From Pseudomonas brassicacearum (lineage in GTDB: Bacteria; Pseudomonadota; Gammaproteobacteria; Pseudomonadales; Pseudomonadaceae), in assembly GCF_009601685.2 (NCBI RefSeq), contig NZ_CP045701.2:3844001-3908000 (forward strand): a stretch of 64,000 bases of DNA, given 5' to 3'. A program made the position numbers and the translations under genes. Of the stretch, positions 40,430 to 45,727 are shown one piece after another. The stretch's first letter is position 1, and each line of letters opens with the position of its first letter. The notes under the pieces are model-generated. The model saw only the letters and a program-made list of their open reading frames with translations, was not told the DNA's origin and ran no database searches.

Positions 40430-41929
40430 TCACGCGCTTCGACGGTCGTTGAACACAACATAGACCGGCTCCAATCCCGATTCCTGGGGAAACACCACGA
40501 CATAATCATCGAATCGAACCTCTTCGATGGATTCAAAAGTTTCCAATGTCGGTACCGGCGAAGCGTGAATGAAACCGGCAGAATCGAGTCGATTTTGCTC
40601 GGACGCAATAGGCGCCTCCAAGCTATCCGCACGACTCCATTCAATCACTCGGGCCTGCGGGCCGTCCGTGGTCAAGCGAAAAACCCGTCCAACTTCATCC
40701 CAAACTGCCAACCTCACACGCACCTTGGACGGCAACACACCCGTGGCAGGCGTGATGTAGATCTGAAACAGTTCACGTATTTCTTTCAGGCCCCTGAAAC
40801 GGCTGCCAGGTTTTGTCGCGACCGTTGCAGTGCTCATTCGCAACGGCAACGCCACCTCGCCCTGCCGCGCGGCGAGGGCCTGCCAGTCCTGTTCGACTGC
40901 AGAGATCTCGGCCAGCGCCACACACAGGCCAAAACGCGCCTCTTTGGTTCGACTGACAAGATCAAAACCCAGGACCTCGGCATATTGCCCGGCGTGCCCC
41001 TGCTCTGGATGCGTCATCAACCAATTGAACTCGGCGACGGCTGAGCGAATGGATTTTTGCAAATCCACCCGTTGACTAACCCTTAGTGGCGGCGCATCGC
41101 TCAGCAACAGGTTTGGGTGCCTCGTACCGTTTGCAGCGGACATGCGAAACAATACTGGGCTGCTGTCCTCTCCACGCAACCGCATCAATTGCTGCGAGGA
41201 ACGTTCCAGTACGGCTTCAGCGGCGGCGTGAAGAACGGCATGCCGCTGGGCGATCGAGGTCAGTCGCGCAAGATAACGACCATGATTGGCAGTGGCCTGT
41301 CGTGAATTCGCTTGCCAGAGCGCCTGGTCGGCTTTGTTATAGGTGAGATCACGCTGGGCGCCGTTCAGGGCAAACTCGACACGCATTTTACGCCGCTCGA
41401 ACGCGCCAACGGCCATGACCACTTCGTGCTGCGCTTGCTCCAATTGCCGCATGCTCTGCTTGAGTGCATCCAGCGTCTGCTCAGCATCTTGTTGGGTTTG
41501 TCGTTGCCGGGTAGCAAGCTCCAGCTGGGTAAAGGCCTTTTCAACCGTCTGGTCTGCGGCGGTGATGTCCGAGGCCATCTGCTGTGCATTGGCAAACTCG
41601 CGCTGGGCTCTTGCCGTCGCGTGTTGCGCCATGTTCAAGCGAGGCGCGGGCTTGGCCGGGGCAGGCAGTACCCCACCCTTGAAGGGGATAACGTTCTTTT
41701 TGAAGTGCCACTGTTTTACAAAGTAGACGACCGCATTCGGCGAATTCATATTCACGGTGTCGTCCGGGTAAAACAGCAGGTCCGCGCCTTTGGGGTGCCC
41801 GACGATTCGATCGAAGTGGTTGATCAGTCGGTCATGCTCTTCTTTGCCCATGTCGACATTCCAGATTTTCCCTACGAACGCCTGAAACTCGGCCTCGGTG
41901 TAATCCTGGAGTTTGGGTTTAAGTTCCAT
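40430..41929 (-). CDS. Im9-type DNase immunity domain fused to a pyocin-S-like domain
   Basis: 499 residues. Residues 1-86 match colicin E9/pyocin DNase immunity proteins: MELKPKLQDYTEAEF, GHPKGADLLFYPDD (the helix III toxin-contact region DLIYYP in Im9) and VKQWHFKKN. Residues about 95-250 are an Ala/Gln-rich coiled coil. Residues about 360-499 resemble the bacteriocin pyocin-S domain, ending FDDYVVVFPQESGLEPVYVV. No nuclease or pore domain follows. The start ATG 41929 has AAGGA upstream. It is the last gene of the bacteriocin locus. It may protect against DNase pyocins or be a recombination product; a role in import or binding is unknown. Confidence 0.8.
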   Translation of the reverse strand: MELKPKLQDYTEAEFQAFVGKIWNVDMGKEEHDRLINHFDRIVGHPKGADLLFYPDDTVNMNSPNAVVYFVKQWHFKKNVIPFKGGVLPAPAKPAPRLNMAQHATARAQREFANAQQMASDITAADQTVEKAFTQLELATRQRQTQQDAEQTLDALKQSMRQLEQAQHEVVMAVGAFERRKMRVEFALNGAQRDLTYNKADQALWQANSRQATANHGRYLARLTSIAQRHAVLHAAAEAVLERSSQQLMRLRGEDSSPVLFRMSAANGTRHPNLLLSDAPPLRVSQRVDLQKSIRSAVAEFNWLMTHPEQGHAGQYAEVLGFDLVSRTKEARFGLCVALAEISAVEQDWQALAARQGEVALPLRMSTATVATKPGSRFRGLKEIRELFQIYITPATGVLPSKVRVRLAVWDEVGRVFRLTTDGPQARVIEWSRADSLEAPIASEQNRLDSAGFIHASPVPTLETFESIEEVRFDDYVVVFPQESGLEPVYVVFNDRRSA

Positions 41930-42129: not shown

Positions 42130-42606
42130 TCAACGGTGTCCTTTATCTATCAAAGTGAAGACCAAGGTCTTTACTCTCATATCCTGGGTATATTGAAAAA
42201 CAACCTTTTTACCGGGATACAGTTCTGGGTCCAACGGGTACGAATCCCACCCCCCAGTCATCCCTATCGGCACTGGCATTTTTATTGGGCCTTTCGATGC
42301 CATCGGTTCCCCGAAAACCCTATGAATATCAGACTGCGTCATTTCCGACATATAGAGAGCAGGAAGTTCGCCTTTATACTCTTTCGTTGAGGGTGTGGTT
42401 CGTATAAGCGAAACGAAAAGCGTCTCGAATCGCCCCGTCTCCCGCCAGACCCCCAACTCTATTCCGGGCTCTGGCTCAAACTCAAGTCGATTTCGTCCTT
42501 CATACATTTCGGTCAATGGCTGATCGGGCAGTATGCCCTCGCTTACCAATACCTAATATTGACTCCCAATACGTTCAATGAGCACTTCAAGCTCAAAAGA
42601 TTTCAT
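42130..42606 (-). pseudogene. Second bacteriocin immunity gene, interrupted by an in-frame amber codon
   Basis: From ATG 42606 the frame reads MKSFELEVLIERIGSQY, then TAG (42555-42553) at codon 18, and then continues open to 42130 with clear similarity to the intact immunity protein next door (LPDQPLTEMYEGRNRLEF, KGPIKMPVPIGMTGGWDSY, VFTLIDKGH). The whole unit is 477 bases, exactly the length of the intact paralogue. The stop replaces the codon for Glu18. A downstream TTG (42549) could allow a 139-residue product lacking the first helix. The start overlaps the TGA of a toxin-tip remnant. Confidence 0.8.
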
Positions 42607-42677: not shown

Positions 42678-43154
42678 TCAAGAGTGACCTGTATCTAGCA
42701 AGGTAAAAACCAAGGTATTTACTCTCATATCAACGCCATATTGAAATACAACCTTTTTACCAAGATACCGCTCTGGATCCAATTGGTAGGACTCCCACCC
42801 TCCTGTCTGCCCGATCGGTAGCGGCATTTTAATGGGACCTTTTGATATCATCGGCTCGCCAAAAATCGCGTGCACATCAGTTTTTGTCATCTCCCGAACA
42901 TAGGGGGCGGGAAGCTCGCCCTGATATGCAGATGTTGAAGGTGTGGTTTTTCTGAGCGTAATGAAAAGGGTTTCAAATTTTTTCGTCACTCGCCAGAAGT
43001 CCATATTGATACCAAGCTCTGGCTTAAACCCCAACCGATCCCGACCTTCATACATTTCACTCAACGGCCAATCCGGCAGGAGCCCACGACTTATCAAGGT
43101 CTCATGACTACTTCCAATACTTCTAATAAGCTCTTCAAGCTCAACTCTTTTCAT
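42678..43154 (-). CDS. Immunity protein for the adjacent pyocin
   Basis: 158 residues, starting MKRVELEELIRSIGSSHETL. Key segments are LPDWPLSEMYEGRDRLGF, GPIKMPLPIGQTGGWESYQL and VFTLLDTGH. It resembles proteins filed as DUF6392/pyocin immunity in pseudomonads (from memory, not searched). The ATG overlaps the pyocin stop by one base (TAATG), the tight coupling expected of a toxin-immunity pair. Lower G+C than the mrp or T6SS genes. Presumed to bind and block the pyocin C-terminal domain in the cytosol. Confidence 0.8.
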   Translation of the reverse strand: MKRVELEELIRSIGSSHETLISRGLLPDWPLSEMYEGRDRLGFKPELGINMDFWRVTKKFETLFITLRKTTPSTSAYQGELPAPYVREMTKTDVHAIFGEPMISKGPIKMPLPIGQTGGWESYQLDPERYLGKKVVFQYGVDMRVNTLVFTLLDTGHS

Positions 43155-45727
43155 TAGTACCATCCTTGTTCTTTGTGAAGGTCATGTAGTGATTCTTGAG
43201 CTGCATTTAGCTCAGCCTCCGAAAACCCTGACTCGACAAGACCCGGTTTGAGCGCTGCGAAATTGTTGCTCACCGCGGCTTCCAGATTTGTAGCGTCTTT
43301 TATGCGCCTATCGAGATTATTGCGCCCACCGTAGGTCTCACTAAATTTTTGATGAACACCAGAAGGAATTGCGATGCTTGGAGCCCTTCGGATGAGATCC
43401 GAAATCGTGTCGTAGTCCCAAGTTTCAAAATTCATACGAATATAGGTCTCCAGCGCTTTCCTCGACGGAATATGGTCAATATCCAACCCATCCCCTCTAC
43501 TTCGACCACTGAGTTCGTTATACGGCCCCACCTCCAAGGGTTCCACCGGCGGACCGACAAACACCAACCCCGGCGAAGGCAGTTCCATGTCCGTCGGATA
43601 CCCCGGAATATTGGCACCGACTTGCCCCGGGTCAACAGCCGGAAACGTCTCGTTTTCCGGTAGGACCGGGATGACGGGTTTGCCGGGATACACCGACGAG
43701 AGTGGCGGTGTAATCGGTGAGGTGGTGGGCCCAAGCTGTTCGATGCCCGGGGGGACCAAGGGCGTTCGGGTGCCGTTGCCGATTGGAGGCGCTGGCCAGG
43801 GGATGACCGCCGGTACGATGCCCGGCCTGCCAAGCAGGCTGTTTGGGGTGGTGATGCTGATGCGGTCGAAATTGAAAGGGTTTTCACCCAGCTCGGCGCG
43901 GTTTAGATAACGCAGTTCAAATTCACGGCGCTCACCGACCCACGTGCTTTTCGGCGCGTAGGGCGCAAAACCTCGTTCGATGCGTTTTTGGTTGAGTTCG
44001 TCTGTGTTGTCCCACAGCGTCGGATGCTCGGCGAGGGTGCGCCACAGTGCCTGGTCCAAGGCGCTGAATGACTTTATCGTCTGCGCCCGCATCTGATGGC
44101 CGACTTGCTCGGGAATGGCCGCGCCCTGGGGCTGGCTGGCCTTGCTCCACCAATCATTCGCAGCCGGCTTGCCGGCACCCGTGACAATGCCCGAGCCCAG
44201 GGGTGGCAAATCGAATGAGAAATAGGTCGGCGGCAGCCCGGGCACGCAGACGATGCAGTCTTGAATGCGCAGGTCCACGCCCGCCGGCAGGGTCTCGACT
44301 TGTGGCGCCATGAGCATCAGCGCTGGCGGGCTTGTCGGGGAAGTGCGTGGGACCGCGTATGTGGCGAACTGTAGTTGCCGGGTTACAACACCGGGAACTT
44401 CGGCGTTATAGAGGCCGGTCAGAGGGTCCAGGACTGCATTGATGACCGGAACCTGAGCGCTGATTGCCCCTCCGGTATTGGCGACGTGGATCGTGGTGCC
44501 TTCGGACACGGTTTCAGGTTTGAGCCGGTGAGGCATTTCCACCGAGCCACCTGCATCGGCAACTGAGCTCAGCCTCTGCTCGTCCGCCAGACCCAGTGTT
44601 TGGACCGGTACGCCAACGCCTTGAAACAGTCGCCGACGTTGCTCGACAGTGAGTTCTCCGTTGCCCAGAGGGGTGGTGTGTGTCGCCAGCGCGATAAATA
44701 AACCTGGCCCCTTCAAGGCAATGCTCTTTAACTCACCGAGCATCTCCACGGCCGACTGGACAGCTTTGTCCAATACCGCCGTGTCTTGCCGGGGCACAAA
44801 CACGGTCCCCTGGCTCAACACCATCCCGCCCGCTGTCAACGAAGAGGCGGGCACACTCACGGTATGGACTTGCCTGAACCGCTCCAGCCGGACGCTTTCA
44901 TCCATCTGCTGTTTGAAGCGAATGCGCGCCGCCCGTTGTTCGGCGTATTGACGCTGGCGCTCCCAGACAGCTTCCCGTTCACGCCAAGCCACCGCCTGTT
45001 CGGCATGATGCCGTGCCAGCGCGTTGGATTTTTCGCTCAGGGCCTTGATCTGCGCGGACAGCAGTCGCGCCTCCTGGGCTGCGGTGTAACTCTGCTCCCA
45101 GAGTCGATGACCCTCATCGAGTGAGGCGCCAAATTGATCCAGTCGCGTGCGGTAGTCGTTCGCCGAACGGGTGAGCGGATCCTGTCCGTCAAAGACGCGA
45201 GCCGCGAGATTCCTGGCGTTGAGCTCCTTGGTCTTGCGGGCGATCAGCCCGTCGATTTCGTTTTTTTCCTTGGTGATGGTGTAAAGCTGCCAACGCTCGG
45301 TCGAGTTCGAGGTGGGCGGCCGTTTTGCTGCCGAAATTTCCTTTTGAAGCGATGCGTCGAGCTGTTGCTTTTTACTCGCGAAGTTTCGATCCACCTCGGC
45401 CCGGGTGGTGGTGTAGCGCTGCACCATCGTCGCCAGCGCTTGTTGGCGTGCCTGCTCCTTGGCTTTTGCGGCAGCGGCGGCCTTGGCTTTTTCGGCGTCG
45501 GCCTTCGCTTTTGCAGCGGCTTTCGCTTCCTCGGCCTGGCGCTTGAGCGTCGCTTGCCGCCGCTTTTCCATGCCCTTGGCTGAACGCTTGGGGCCTCCTG
45601 TCGCTCCGACGCGGTTTCCTCCGAAGCCGCCGCCATACCCGCCACCGGAACCGCCACCCGATGAGGGTCGCCCCGGTCTGATAACTACCGTTCCATTTGA
45701 TCCATCGCTAAATGTTCGCTTTGCCAT
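43154..45727 (-). CDS. S-type pyocin (colicin-like bacteriocin) with dead DNase domain and new C-terminal toxin domain
   Basis: 857 residues. 1-45 is a Gly-rich disordered leader. About 46-290 is a Lys/Ala-rich coiled coil. About 290-480 is the pyocin-S domain (LDPLTGLYNAEVPGV). About 517-630 aligns with colicin E9 DNase (GAAIPEQVGHQMRAQT, VGERREFEL), but every HNH residue is replaced: FELHH is FELRY, the Asn is Arg622, and both later His are lost. A Pro-rich linker (638-735) leads to a C-terminal domain with GDGLDIDHIPSRKALE and IPSGVHQKFSETYGGRNN, a likely His-dependent nuclease. There is no signal peptide; release would need lysis. Start ATG 45727 with AAGGAGA. Confidence 0.88.
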   Translation of the reverse strand: MAKRTFSDGSNGTVVIRPGRPSSGGGSGGGYGGGFGGNRVGATGGPKRSAKGMEKRRQATLKRQAEEAKAAAKAKADAEKAKAAAAAKAKEQARQQALATMVQRYTTTRAEVDRNFASKKQQLDASLQKEISAAKRPPTSNSTERWQLYTITKEKNEIDGLIARKTKELNARNLAARVFDGQDPLTRSANDYRTRLDQFGASLDEGHRLWEQSYTAAQEARLLSAQIKALSEKSNALARHHAEQAVAWREREAVWERQRQYAEQRAARIRFKQQMDESVRLERFRQVHTVSVPASSLTAGGMVLSQGTVFVPRQDTAVLDKAVQSAVEMLGELKSIALKGPGLFIALATHTTPLGNGELTVEQRRRLFQGVGVPVQTLGLADEQRLSSVADAGGSVEMPHRLKPETVSEGTTIHVANTGGAISAQVPVINAVLDPLTGLYNAEVPGVVTRQLQFATYAVPRTSPTSPPALMLMAPQVETLPAGVDLRIQDCIVCVPGLPPTYFSFDLPPLGSGIVTGAGKPAANDWWSKASQPQGAAIPEQVGHQMRAQTIKSFSALDQALWRTLAEHPTLWDNTDELNQKRIERGFAPYAPKSTWVGERREFELRYLNRAELGENPFNFDRISITTPNSLLGRPGIVPAVIPWPAPPIGNGTRTPLVPPGIEQLGPTTSPITPPLSSVYPGKPVIPVLPENETFPAVDPGQVGANIPGYPTDMELPSPGLVFVGPPVEPLEVGPYNELSGRSRGDGLDIDHIPSRKALETYIRMNFETWDYDTISDLIRRAPSIAIPSGVHQKFSETYGGRNNLDRRIKDATNLEAAVSNNFAALKPGLVESGFSEAELNAAQESLHDLHKEQGWY

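Follow-up and report, generated by a model that had tools for sequence, protein, structure and literature searches.

Within a 64,000-nucleotide stretch of the Pseudomonas brassicacearum chromosome (contig NZ_CP045701.2, positions 3,844,001 to 3,908,000; hereafter the window), gene A (43154..45727, minus strand) encodes an S-type pyocin of 857 residues in which a colicin-type deoxyribonuclease (DNase) domain that has lost its HNH site precedes a different C-terminal tip. It is probable that this dead domain is a docking site for the product of gene C, a neighbouring fusion of an immunity (Im) domain with a coiled coil and an inner membrane translocation (IMT) domain, rather than a carrier for import. 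The more specific proposal, favoured by a narrow margin over its negation, is a two-subunit bacteriocin that would be joined by a retired toxin–immunity pair through a charge-reversed, private interface, with swappable warheads behind it. The features computed here are the folds and domain order, the absence of the HNH residues from the middle DNase, the purifying selection on it, the constant presence of gene C, a conserved exosite, reversed charges and the exchange of tips.

The dead DNase occupies residues 513–636 of gene A (43820..44191). PF21431 (Col-Pyo_DNase) matches residues 513–629 over profile positions 1–117 of 124 (84.7 bits, E 7.7e-24), and phmmer aligns the same residues with the colicin E9 DNase without a gap (E 1e-18), so that each residue of the window protein is numbered as the E9 residue plus 504. 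The E9 HNH residues, which we take to be H102, H103, N118, H127 and H131, correspond to R606, Y607, R622, L631 and P635, and all five are lost; residues 513–629 are a colicin-type DNase domain without an HNH site. The initial annotation, made from the sequence alone, had proposed an E9-type DNase stripped of its HNH residues at about residues 517–630 of this reading frame, and the frame, its length, the domain and the loss are all borne out, the strand being minus. AlphaFold models residues 400–640 poorly (block means 29–73 for residues 511–630); on this low-confidence model the colicin E9 and pyocin AP41 DNases nevertheless rank first in Foldseek, at a root-mean-square deviation (rmsd) of about 9, in agreement with the DNase fold expected by the initial annotation. 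The models of A and C are single chains, and the alignment used for A cut the rows with HNH tips after the dead domain.

The dead domain is not peculiar to this strain. Among 398 genomes of the genus it had a match in 150, strong in 37, the weaker matches (about 36% identity or less) resembling ordinary pyocin DNases. A scan of one genome per species (84,980 species), which works by short peptide patterns and which distant relatives may escape, yielded 39 loci, of which 38 carry a Pseudomonas title and one a Pantoea title; the latter (L133, NZ_VWXK01000007.1, titled Pantoea sp. Ap-967) matches a genome placed in the window's genus (G134), and its title is probably wrong. The family analysed comprises 51 distinct Pseudomonas loci in which the dead domain could be read: the tip is an HNH DNase in 26, resembles the DNase effector TseN in 24 and is unresolved in one. 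Relatives sharing the dead DNase under different tips, which the initial annotation had suggested looking for, are thus found in two tip classes. Gene A is uninterrupted in 46 of the 51 loci; those with an interrupted frame (L108, L109, L118, L120 and L129) were counted where the dead domain was readable, and L086 was grouped with the TseN tips despite HNH-tip fragments downstream. Left out were L132 and L098 (dead domain partial), L139 and L167 (A truncated), L094 (A broken, no C), L069 (G389; a C-terminal DNase with HNH residues, of another family) and loci with identical dead domains.

Loss of the active site extends across the family. None of the five HNH residues is kept in 38 of the 51 dead domains and one is kept in 13 (His607 in 12, Asn622 in one), while the remaining three places are never His (0/51). 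The HNH tips retain all five in 24 of 26 cases and four in another; the last (L108), in an interrupted frame, is the sole tip without a readable HNH residue or Arg. As a control, 27 ordinary DNases of the genus, chosen by hand among the weaker genome-search matches in long open frames and not a random sample, are all C-terminal and all have the full HH-N-HxxxH pattern. An intact HNH site in the middle DNase is ruled out by the residues read across the family. The dead domains form a single clade (support 100/100), and the ratio of nonsynonymous to synonymous substitution rates (dN/dS) is 0.19 for the dead domain, 0.09 for its exosite, 0.21 for the IMT domain of A and 0.16 for the tips. The dead domain is under purifying selection, and the closeness of its value to those of the IMT domain and the tips marks it as a maintained part and not one in decay; a one-off pseudogene is ruled out by the 51 loci and the ratio of 0.19. 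Tips, in turn, have been exchanged behind it: the tip class changes 10 times on the dead-domain tree, at least 8 of them on well-supported branches, and three pairs of loci with 94–96% identical dead domains bear different tips.

Gene C (40430..41929, minus strand) encodes 499 residues with PF01320 at 4–80 (75.1 bits) and PF06958 at 350–492 (65.4 bits), and its AlphaFold model has a mean pLDDT of 85. The Im domain (residues 1–80, 41690..41929), with the hotspot ADLLFYP and Lys29 at the place of the conserved Im Glu, matches Im9 chains in Foldseek (TM-score up to 0.89 on the target, about 40% identity). It is followed by long helices of a coiled coil (residues 100–252, 41174..41632; helices 100–146, 153–178, 181–197 and 202–252) and by the second IMT domain of the locus (residues 350–492, 40454..40882), which resembles the ColE7 translocation domain (2axc, Foldseek E 3e-6). 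Every one of the 51 loci has gene C downstream of A and in the same orientation, whichever tip class A carries. Across the 398 genomes, the dead domain (strong matches) occurs in 37 and gene C (its middle region) in 40, with 36 in common; in the four genomes with C alone the adjoining A is truncated, deleted or fragmentary, and the one genome with A but not C (G367) holds a broken remnant. In that locus (L094, G367:C4:3491200-3499200) the dead DNase is apparently joined through a deletion to a gene C-like end. The Im domains of gene C (Im-C) form a single clade (support 100/99), and dN/dS is 0.17 for Im-C, 0.23 for the coil and 0.23 for the IMT domain. L109, where gene C is interrupted, was excluded from the Im-C tree and the distance tests (50 loci used); gene C is short in L118. 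In 5 of the 51 loci gene C ends in a further degenerate DNase (L102:6276-8252, L131:6539-8491, L138:6542-8524, L120:6309-8360 and L074:1553-3499); the window copy stops after its IMT domain.

Among the most conserved parts of the dead domain is the surface on which an immunity protein would sit. The immunity-protein exosite (IPE) corresponds to residues 576–602 (43922..44002), and in live DNases it is described as poorly conserved and under positive selection (PMC4548480). In the 26 HNH-tip loci the mean column entropy of this exosite is 0.31 bits in the dead domain versus 1.41 bits in the tips of the same proteins, which serve as the control for entropies computed without phylogenetic correction; the preceding part (513–575) is similar in the two (0.85 versus 0.92). 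Among 91 sliding windows the exosite ranks 7th in conservation in the dead domains (8th for the TseN-tip loci alone), compared with 83rd in the HNH tips and 90th in the 27 ordinary DNases. The IPE motif NxxxPhixxGxAP (PMC4548480) is kept, with Ala replaced by Pro in 9 and by Ser in 1 of the 51 loci and intact in the window protein, and the loop-4 place, reported as Pro when the Im hotspot is of the alternative type (PMC4548480), is K/R in 51 of 51 dead domains. On the other side, all 37 aligned rows of Im-C have the hotspot Asp. Helix II is the specificity helix of Im proteins, and its entropy is 0.62 bits in Im-C versus 1.33 in the Im proteins that accompany the HNH tips.

The charges at the central salt bridge are reversed. 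All DNase–Im structures are described as sharing a strictly conserved bridge between Im Glu30 and a DNase Arg (PMC4548480), and E2 Arg501 of that paper is taken here as E9 Arg54; PDB titles list the E9 mutants R54A, N75A, F86A and K97A in complex with Im9 as studied interface places. The equivalent residue of gene A is Asp558 (44054..44056). This place is D/E in 45 of 51 dead domains, whereas Arg occupies it in 25 of 26 tips and in all 27 ordinary DNases. With the Im register counted back gap-free from the conserved His-Pro, D/E at 558 stands together with K/R at Im-C 29 in 41 of 51 loci, and the ordinary R/K–D/E arrangement in none (0/51); of the 26 pairs that the tips of these loci form with their own Im proteins, 23 have Arg with E/D. 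Of 41 ordinary Im proteins counted, 7 were left unplaced by the script and E/D was not seen in 5. Im-C distances also follow the dead domain (partial r 0.60 given the IMT domain of A) and not the IMT domain (−0.03 given the dead domain). The simplest reading is that the dead domain of A and Im-C are an obligate, private docking pair. Retention of Im-C as leftover immunity to live DNases is held unlikely, as Lys29 would face Arg in the DNases checked.

On this proposal, the protein would be an S-type pyocin with exchangeable tips, in which the C-terminal TseN-like DNase would kill and the DUF6392 protein of gene B would neutralise it in the producer. A single loss of the active site, in the common ancestor of these loci, would have left the middle DNase to serve from then on as a protein-binding module whose exosite would hold the Im domain of gene C. 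The released weapon would then consist of A (receptor-binding part, IMT domain, pseudo-DNase and warhead) docked to C (coiled coil and second IMT domain), a toxin–immunity pair having become an assembly joint that would be private through its reversed, otherwise conserved salt bridge. Binding of A to C, their joint release and any help of C in entry are all inferred.

Several observations weigh against this proposal. Conservation is not uniformly higher on the Im side, as the Im-C hotspot is less conserved than that of the tip Im proteins (0.60 versus 0.37 bits) and over its full length Im-C shows no higher conservation than they do (0.90 versus 0.84 bits), and the dN/dS values of the tips (0.16) and tip Im proteins (0.12) do not exceed those of the dead domain and Im-C. 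The dN/dS values are themselves rough, because mean dS exceeds 1 throughout and is near saturation. When the 36 loci of the main clade are taken by themselves, Im-C distance correlates no better with the exosite (r 0.58) than with the rest of the domain (0.68) or the IMT domain of A (0.58). Ten of the 51 pairs at 558 and 29 are not cleanly complementary (K–G in three, Q–E in two, R–N, Q–G, K–H and E–D in one each, and one unreadable), and the E–D pair (L138) would repel. The reversal was probably a single ancestral event, and the 41 of 51 loci are therefore not independent. During colicin import Im9 is reported to dissociate at the stage of the outer membrane (PMC12927319), and a docked C might therefore be shed at that point. 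Reading the sequence upstream of gene A by eye, with no motif search made, gave no promoter or SOS box.

The initial annotation had suggested that the dead domain is kept for import, its fold or surface helping the tip to cross the inner membrane. The domain always has the IMT domain on one side and the tip on the other, the place of the live DNase in ordinary pyocins, and this position fits the idea, as do its retention ahead of two unrelated tips and the reported association of the nuclease itself with the inner membrane in transport (PMC12927319). It is not the best account, however, because PF06958, the domain needed for inner-membrane transport (PMC9040868), is already present at residues 388–502, the frozen part is the Im exosite and the locus always encodes an Im-domain protein. 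The net charge of residues 513–629 (mean −0.7, range −5 to 6, versus 0.8 in the tips and 3.1 in the 27 ordinary DNases, with overlapping ranges) hints that a basic surface has not been specially kept, and the conserved exosite, the reversed salt bridge and gene C would be left unexplained. We therefore regard import as an unlikely sole function; an additional role in import, beside docking, may exist.

Somewhat less probable again is that gene C confers immunity or resistance across the whole family, with its Im domain capturing any incoming member, whatever the tip, through the constant dead domain. The presence of C in every locus and the apparent match between its Im domain and the dead domain would be expected, but the tip-type immunity gene is kept as well (26/26 and 24/24), toxicity would not reside in the dead domain, C has 400 more residues under purifying selection, and this surface is conserved where toxin–immunity surfaces usually diversify (PMC4548480). 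We give very little weight to a relic, in which an old tandem-DNase hybrid is decaying and linkage has carried the dead domain and gene C along. Some loci are indeed broken (L094, L098/L132, L139/L167 and L164–L166) and C ends in a degenerate DNase in 5 of 51; nevertheless, dN/dS is 0.09 to 0.23 across all parts, A is uninterrupted in 46 of 51 loci, there is a single origin with long persistence, and the exosite is more conserved than the rest of the dead domain. Docking of the gene C product thus remains the reading we prefer.

The tip follows a Pro-rich linker (residues 640–729, 43541..43810; pLDDT block means below 40 in 641–720) and comprises residues 730–857 (43157..43540). It has no Pfam match. 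Residues 735–847 match TseN (PDB 9J9W) at E 0.005 when the whole protein is used; the last 144 residues reach E 6e-5 (best stretch 8e-4), and Foldseek matches the AlphaFold model to TseN with E 5.6e-4, a TM-score of 0.64 on the target and an rmsd of 3.1. This TseN-like domain is likely the warhead, and the suggestion of the initial annotation that an unrelated, probably toxic domain follows the linker agrees with both the sequence and the fold. The DHIPS and His-Ser-Glu-Thr segments to which it drew attention contain His752 (of DHI) and His792 (of the VHxxxSET stretch), both invariant in 14 aligned tips. His792 aligns with an Ala in the chain solved for the H254A mutant of TseN, and is therefore probably the counterpart of the TseN catalytic His.

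Gene B (42678..43163, minus strand; 161 residues counted from its ATG) encodes a DUF6392 protein (PF19929, 47.8 bits) that is presumed to provide immunity to the TseN-like tip. A DUF6392 gene is present in 24 of 24 TseN-tip loci and a PF01320 immunity gene in 26 of 26 HNH-tip loci, with both kinds in 5 loci. By sequence, the DUF6392 protein could not be matched convincingly to a protein of solved structure, not even to TsiN, and a paper search for the family returned nothing. A second, shorter DUF6392 copy (42130..42549, minus strand; PF19929 21.8 bits, below the gathering score of 25.9) is probably a spare or decayed immunity gene. The TseN-like domain, whole or partial, occurs in 60 of the 398 genomes, in these pyocins and in other open frames. 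Some of these frames have 2,600 to 4,600 codons. Four with about 2,700 to 4,600 codons (domain at G094:C1:78213-78578, G163:C1:61763-62098, G136:C8:120612-120992 and G200:C1:1586445-1586771) are perhaps contact-dependent polymorphic toxins.

From its N-terminus, gene A runs from a Gly-rich start through long helices, PF06958, the DNase domain and the linker to the TseN-matching domain. The helical part up to residue 280 has AlphaFold block means of 59–93, and the long helices at residues 50–286 (44870..45580) are possibly the receptor-binding part, a placement suggested by the model; with the whole model, Foldseek lists the FpvAI–pyocin S2 complex (5odw), a weak match (E 0.015) given without residue ranges. 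PF06958 lies at residues 388–502 (44222..44566; 36.1 bits versus a cut-off of 22.5). As to a plasmid origin of the locus, distant blastn against 72,556 plasmid records gave no match.

Rearranged loci were also seen. Orphan tip pieces with adjoining immunity genes lie between A and C in five loci (L080:4559-5104, L086:4533-5105, L124:6493-6978, L112:7205-7456 and L137:6596-6760), and resemble those of other polymorphic toxin loci. At L164:3264-4577 a 437-residue relative of A joins its N-terminal part directly to a TseN-like tip, without the IMT domain and dead DNase; gene C still adjoins it.

Parts of this architecture have precedents. The putative Pseudomonas hybrids PsdH1 and PsdH2 are described with two C-terminal nuclease modules, two S1-like DNases in PsdH1, and two putative immunity modules downstream (PMC5358913, PMC8469651). 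The HNH-tip loci found here, which have two DNase-fold modules (by Pfam in two of them), may well be of this kind, the comparison being with the description only; the window protein has one such module. Both modules are treated as catalytic in those accounts, whereas the first module is a dead one in all 51 loci of this family, the tips include TseN-like ones, and one Im module sits in a fusion that is apparently matched to the dead DNase. PmdH, a ColM domain with a deviating motif followed by PF06958 and a carocin D toxin (PMC5821083), likewise places a probably inactive former warhead ahead of another toxin; its dead domain is a ColM placed before the import domain, however, and the text available describes no docking partner. 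The DNase–Im complexes of colicins E9, E2 and E7 and pyocins S2 and AP41 (PMC4548480) share with the present pair the DNase profile, the exosite motif, the Im fold and the hotspot type. In contrast, here the catalytic site is absent, the exosite is conserved and not hypervariable, the salt bridge is reversed and the Im domain is fused to a coiled coil and an IMT domain. The warhead fold and its conserved His residues are shared with TseN of the TseN–TsiN pair, a type VI secretion system DNase effector pair of Acidovorax citrulli (PMC12574953; 9J9W); here the domain is carried as a pyocin tip beside a DUF6392 protein. In pyocin G, PF06958 serves translocation across the inner membrane (PMC9040868), and the present locus differs in having two such domains, one on a protein without its own warhead. 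No earlier description of a dead DNase as docking site, of the reversed salt bridge or of an Im–coiled coil–IMT fusion was found in the texts covered by the search, to which the 2014 review naming PsdH1/PsdH2 did not belong.

DNase–Im complexes are the textbook model of affinity and specificity and are among the tightest known protein interfaces. If the proposed docking is true, such a pair would have been reused as a structural joint, made orthogonal by a charge swap at the very bridge reported in every solved complex. Tandem-DNase hybrids of this kind in Pseudomonas would then be single-warhead weapons with a docked partner and not double warheads. The 26 HNH-tip loci, with dead and live exosites side by side, provide a natural experiment on interface evolution. 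The TseN-type DNase, described in 2025 as having no close homologues (PMC12574953), is now placed in pyocins.

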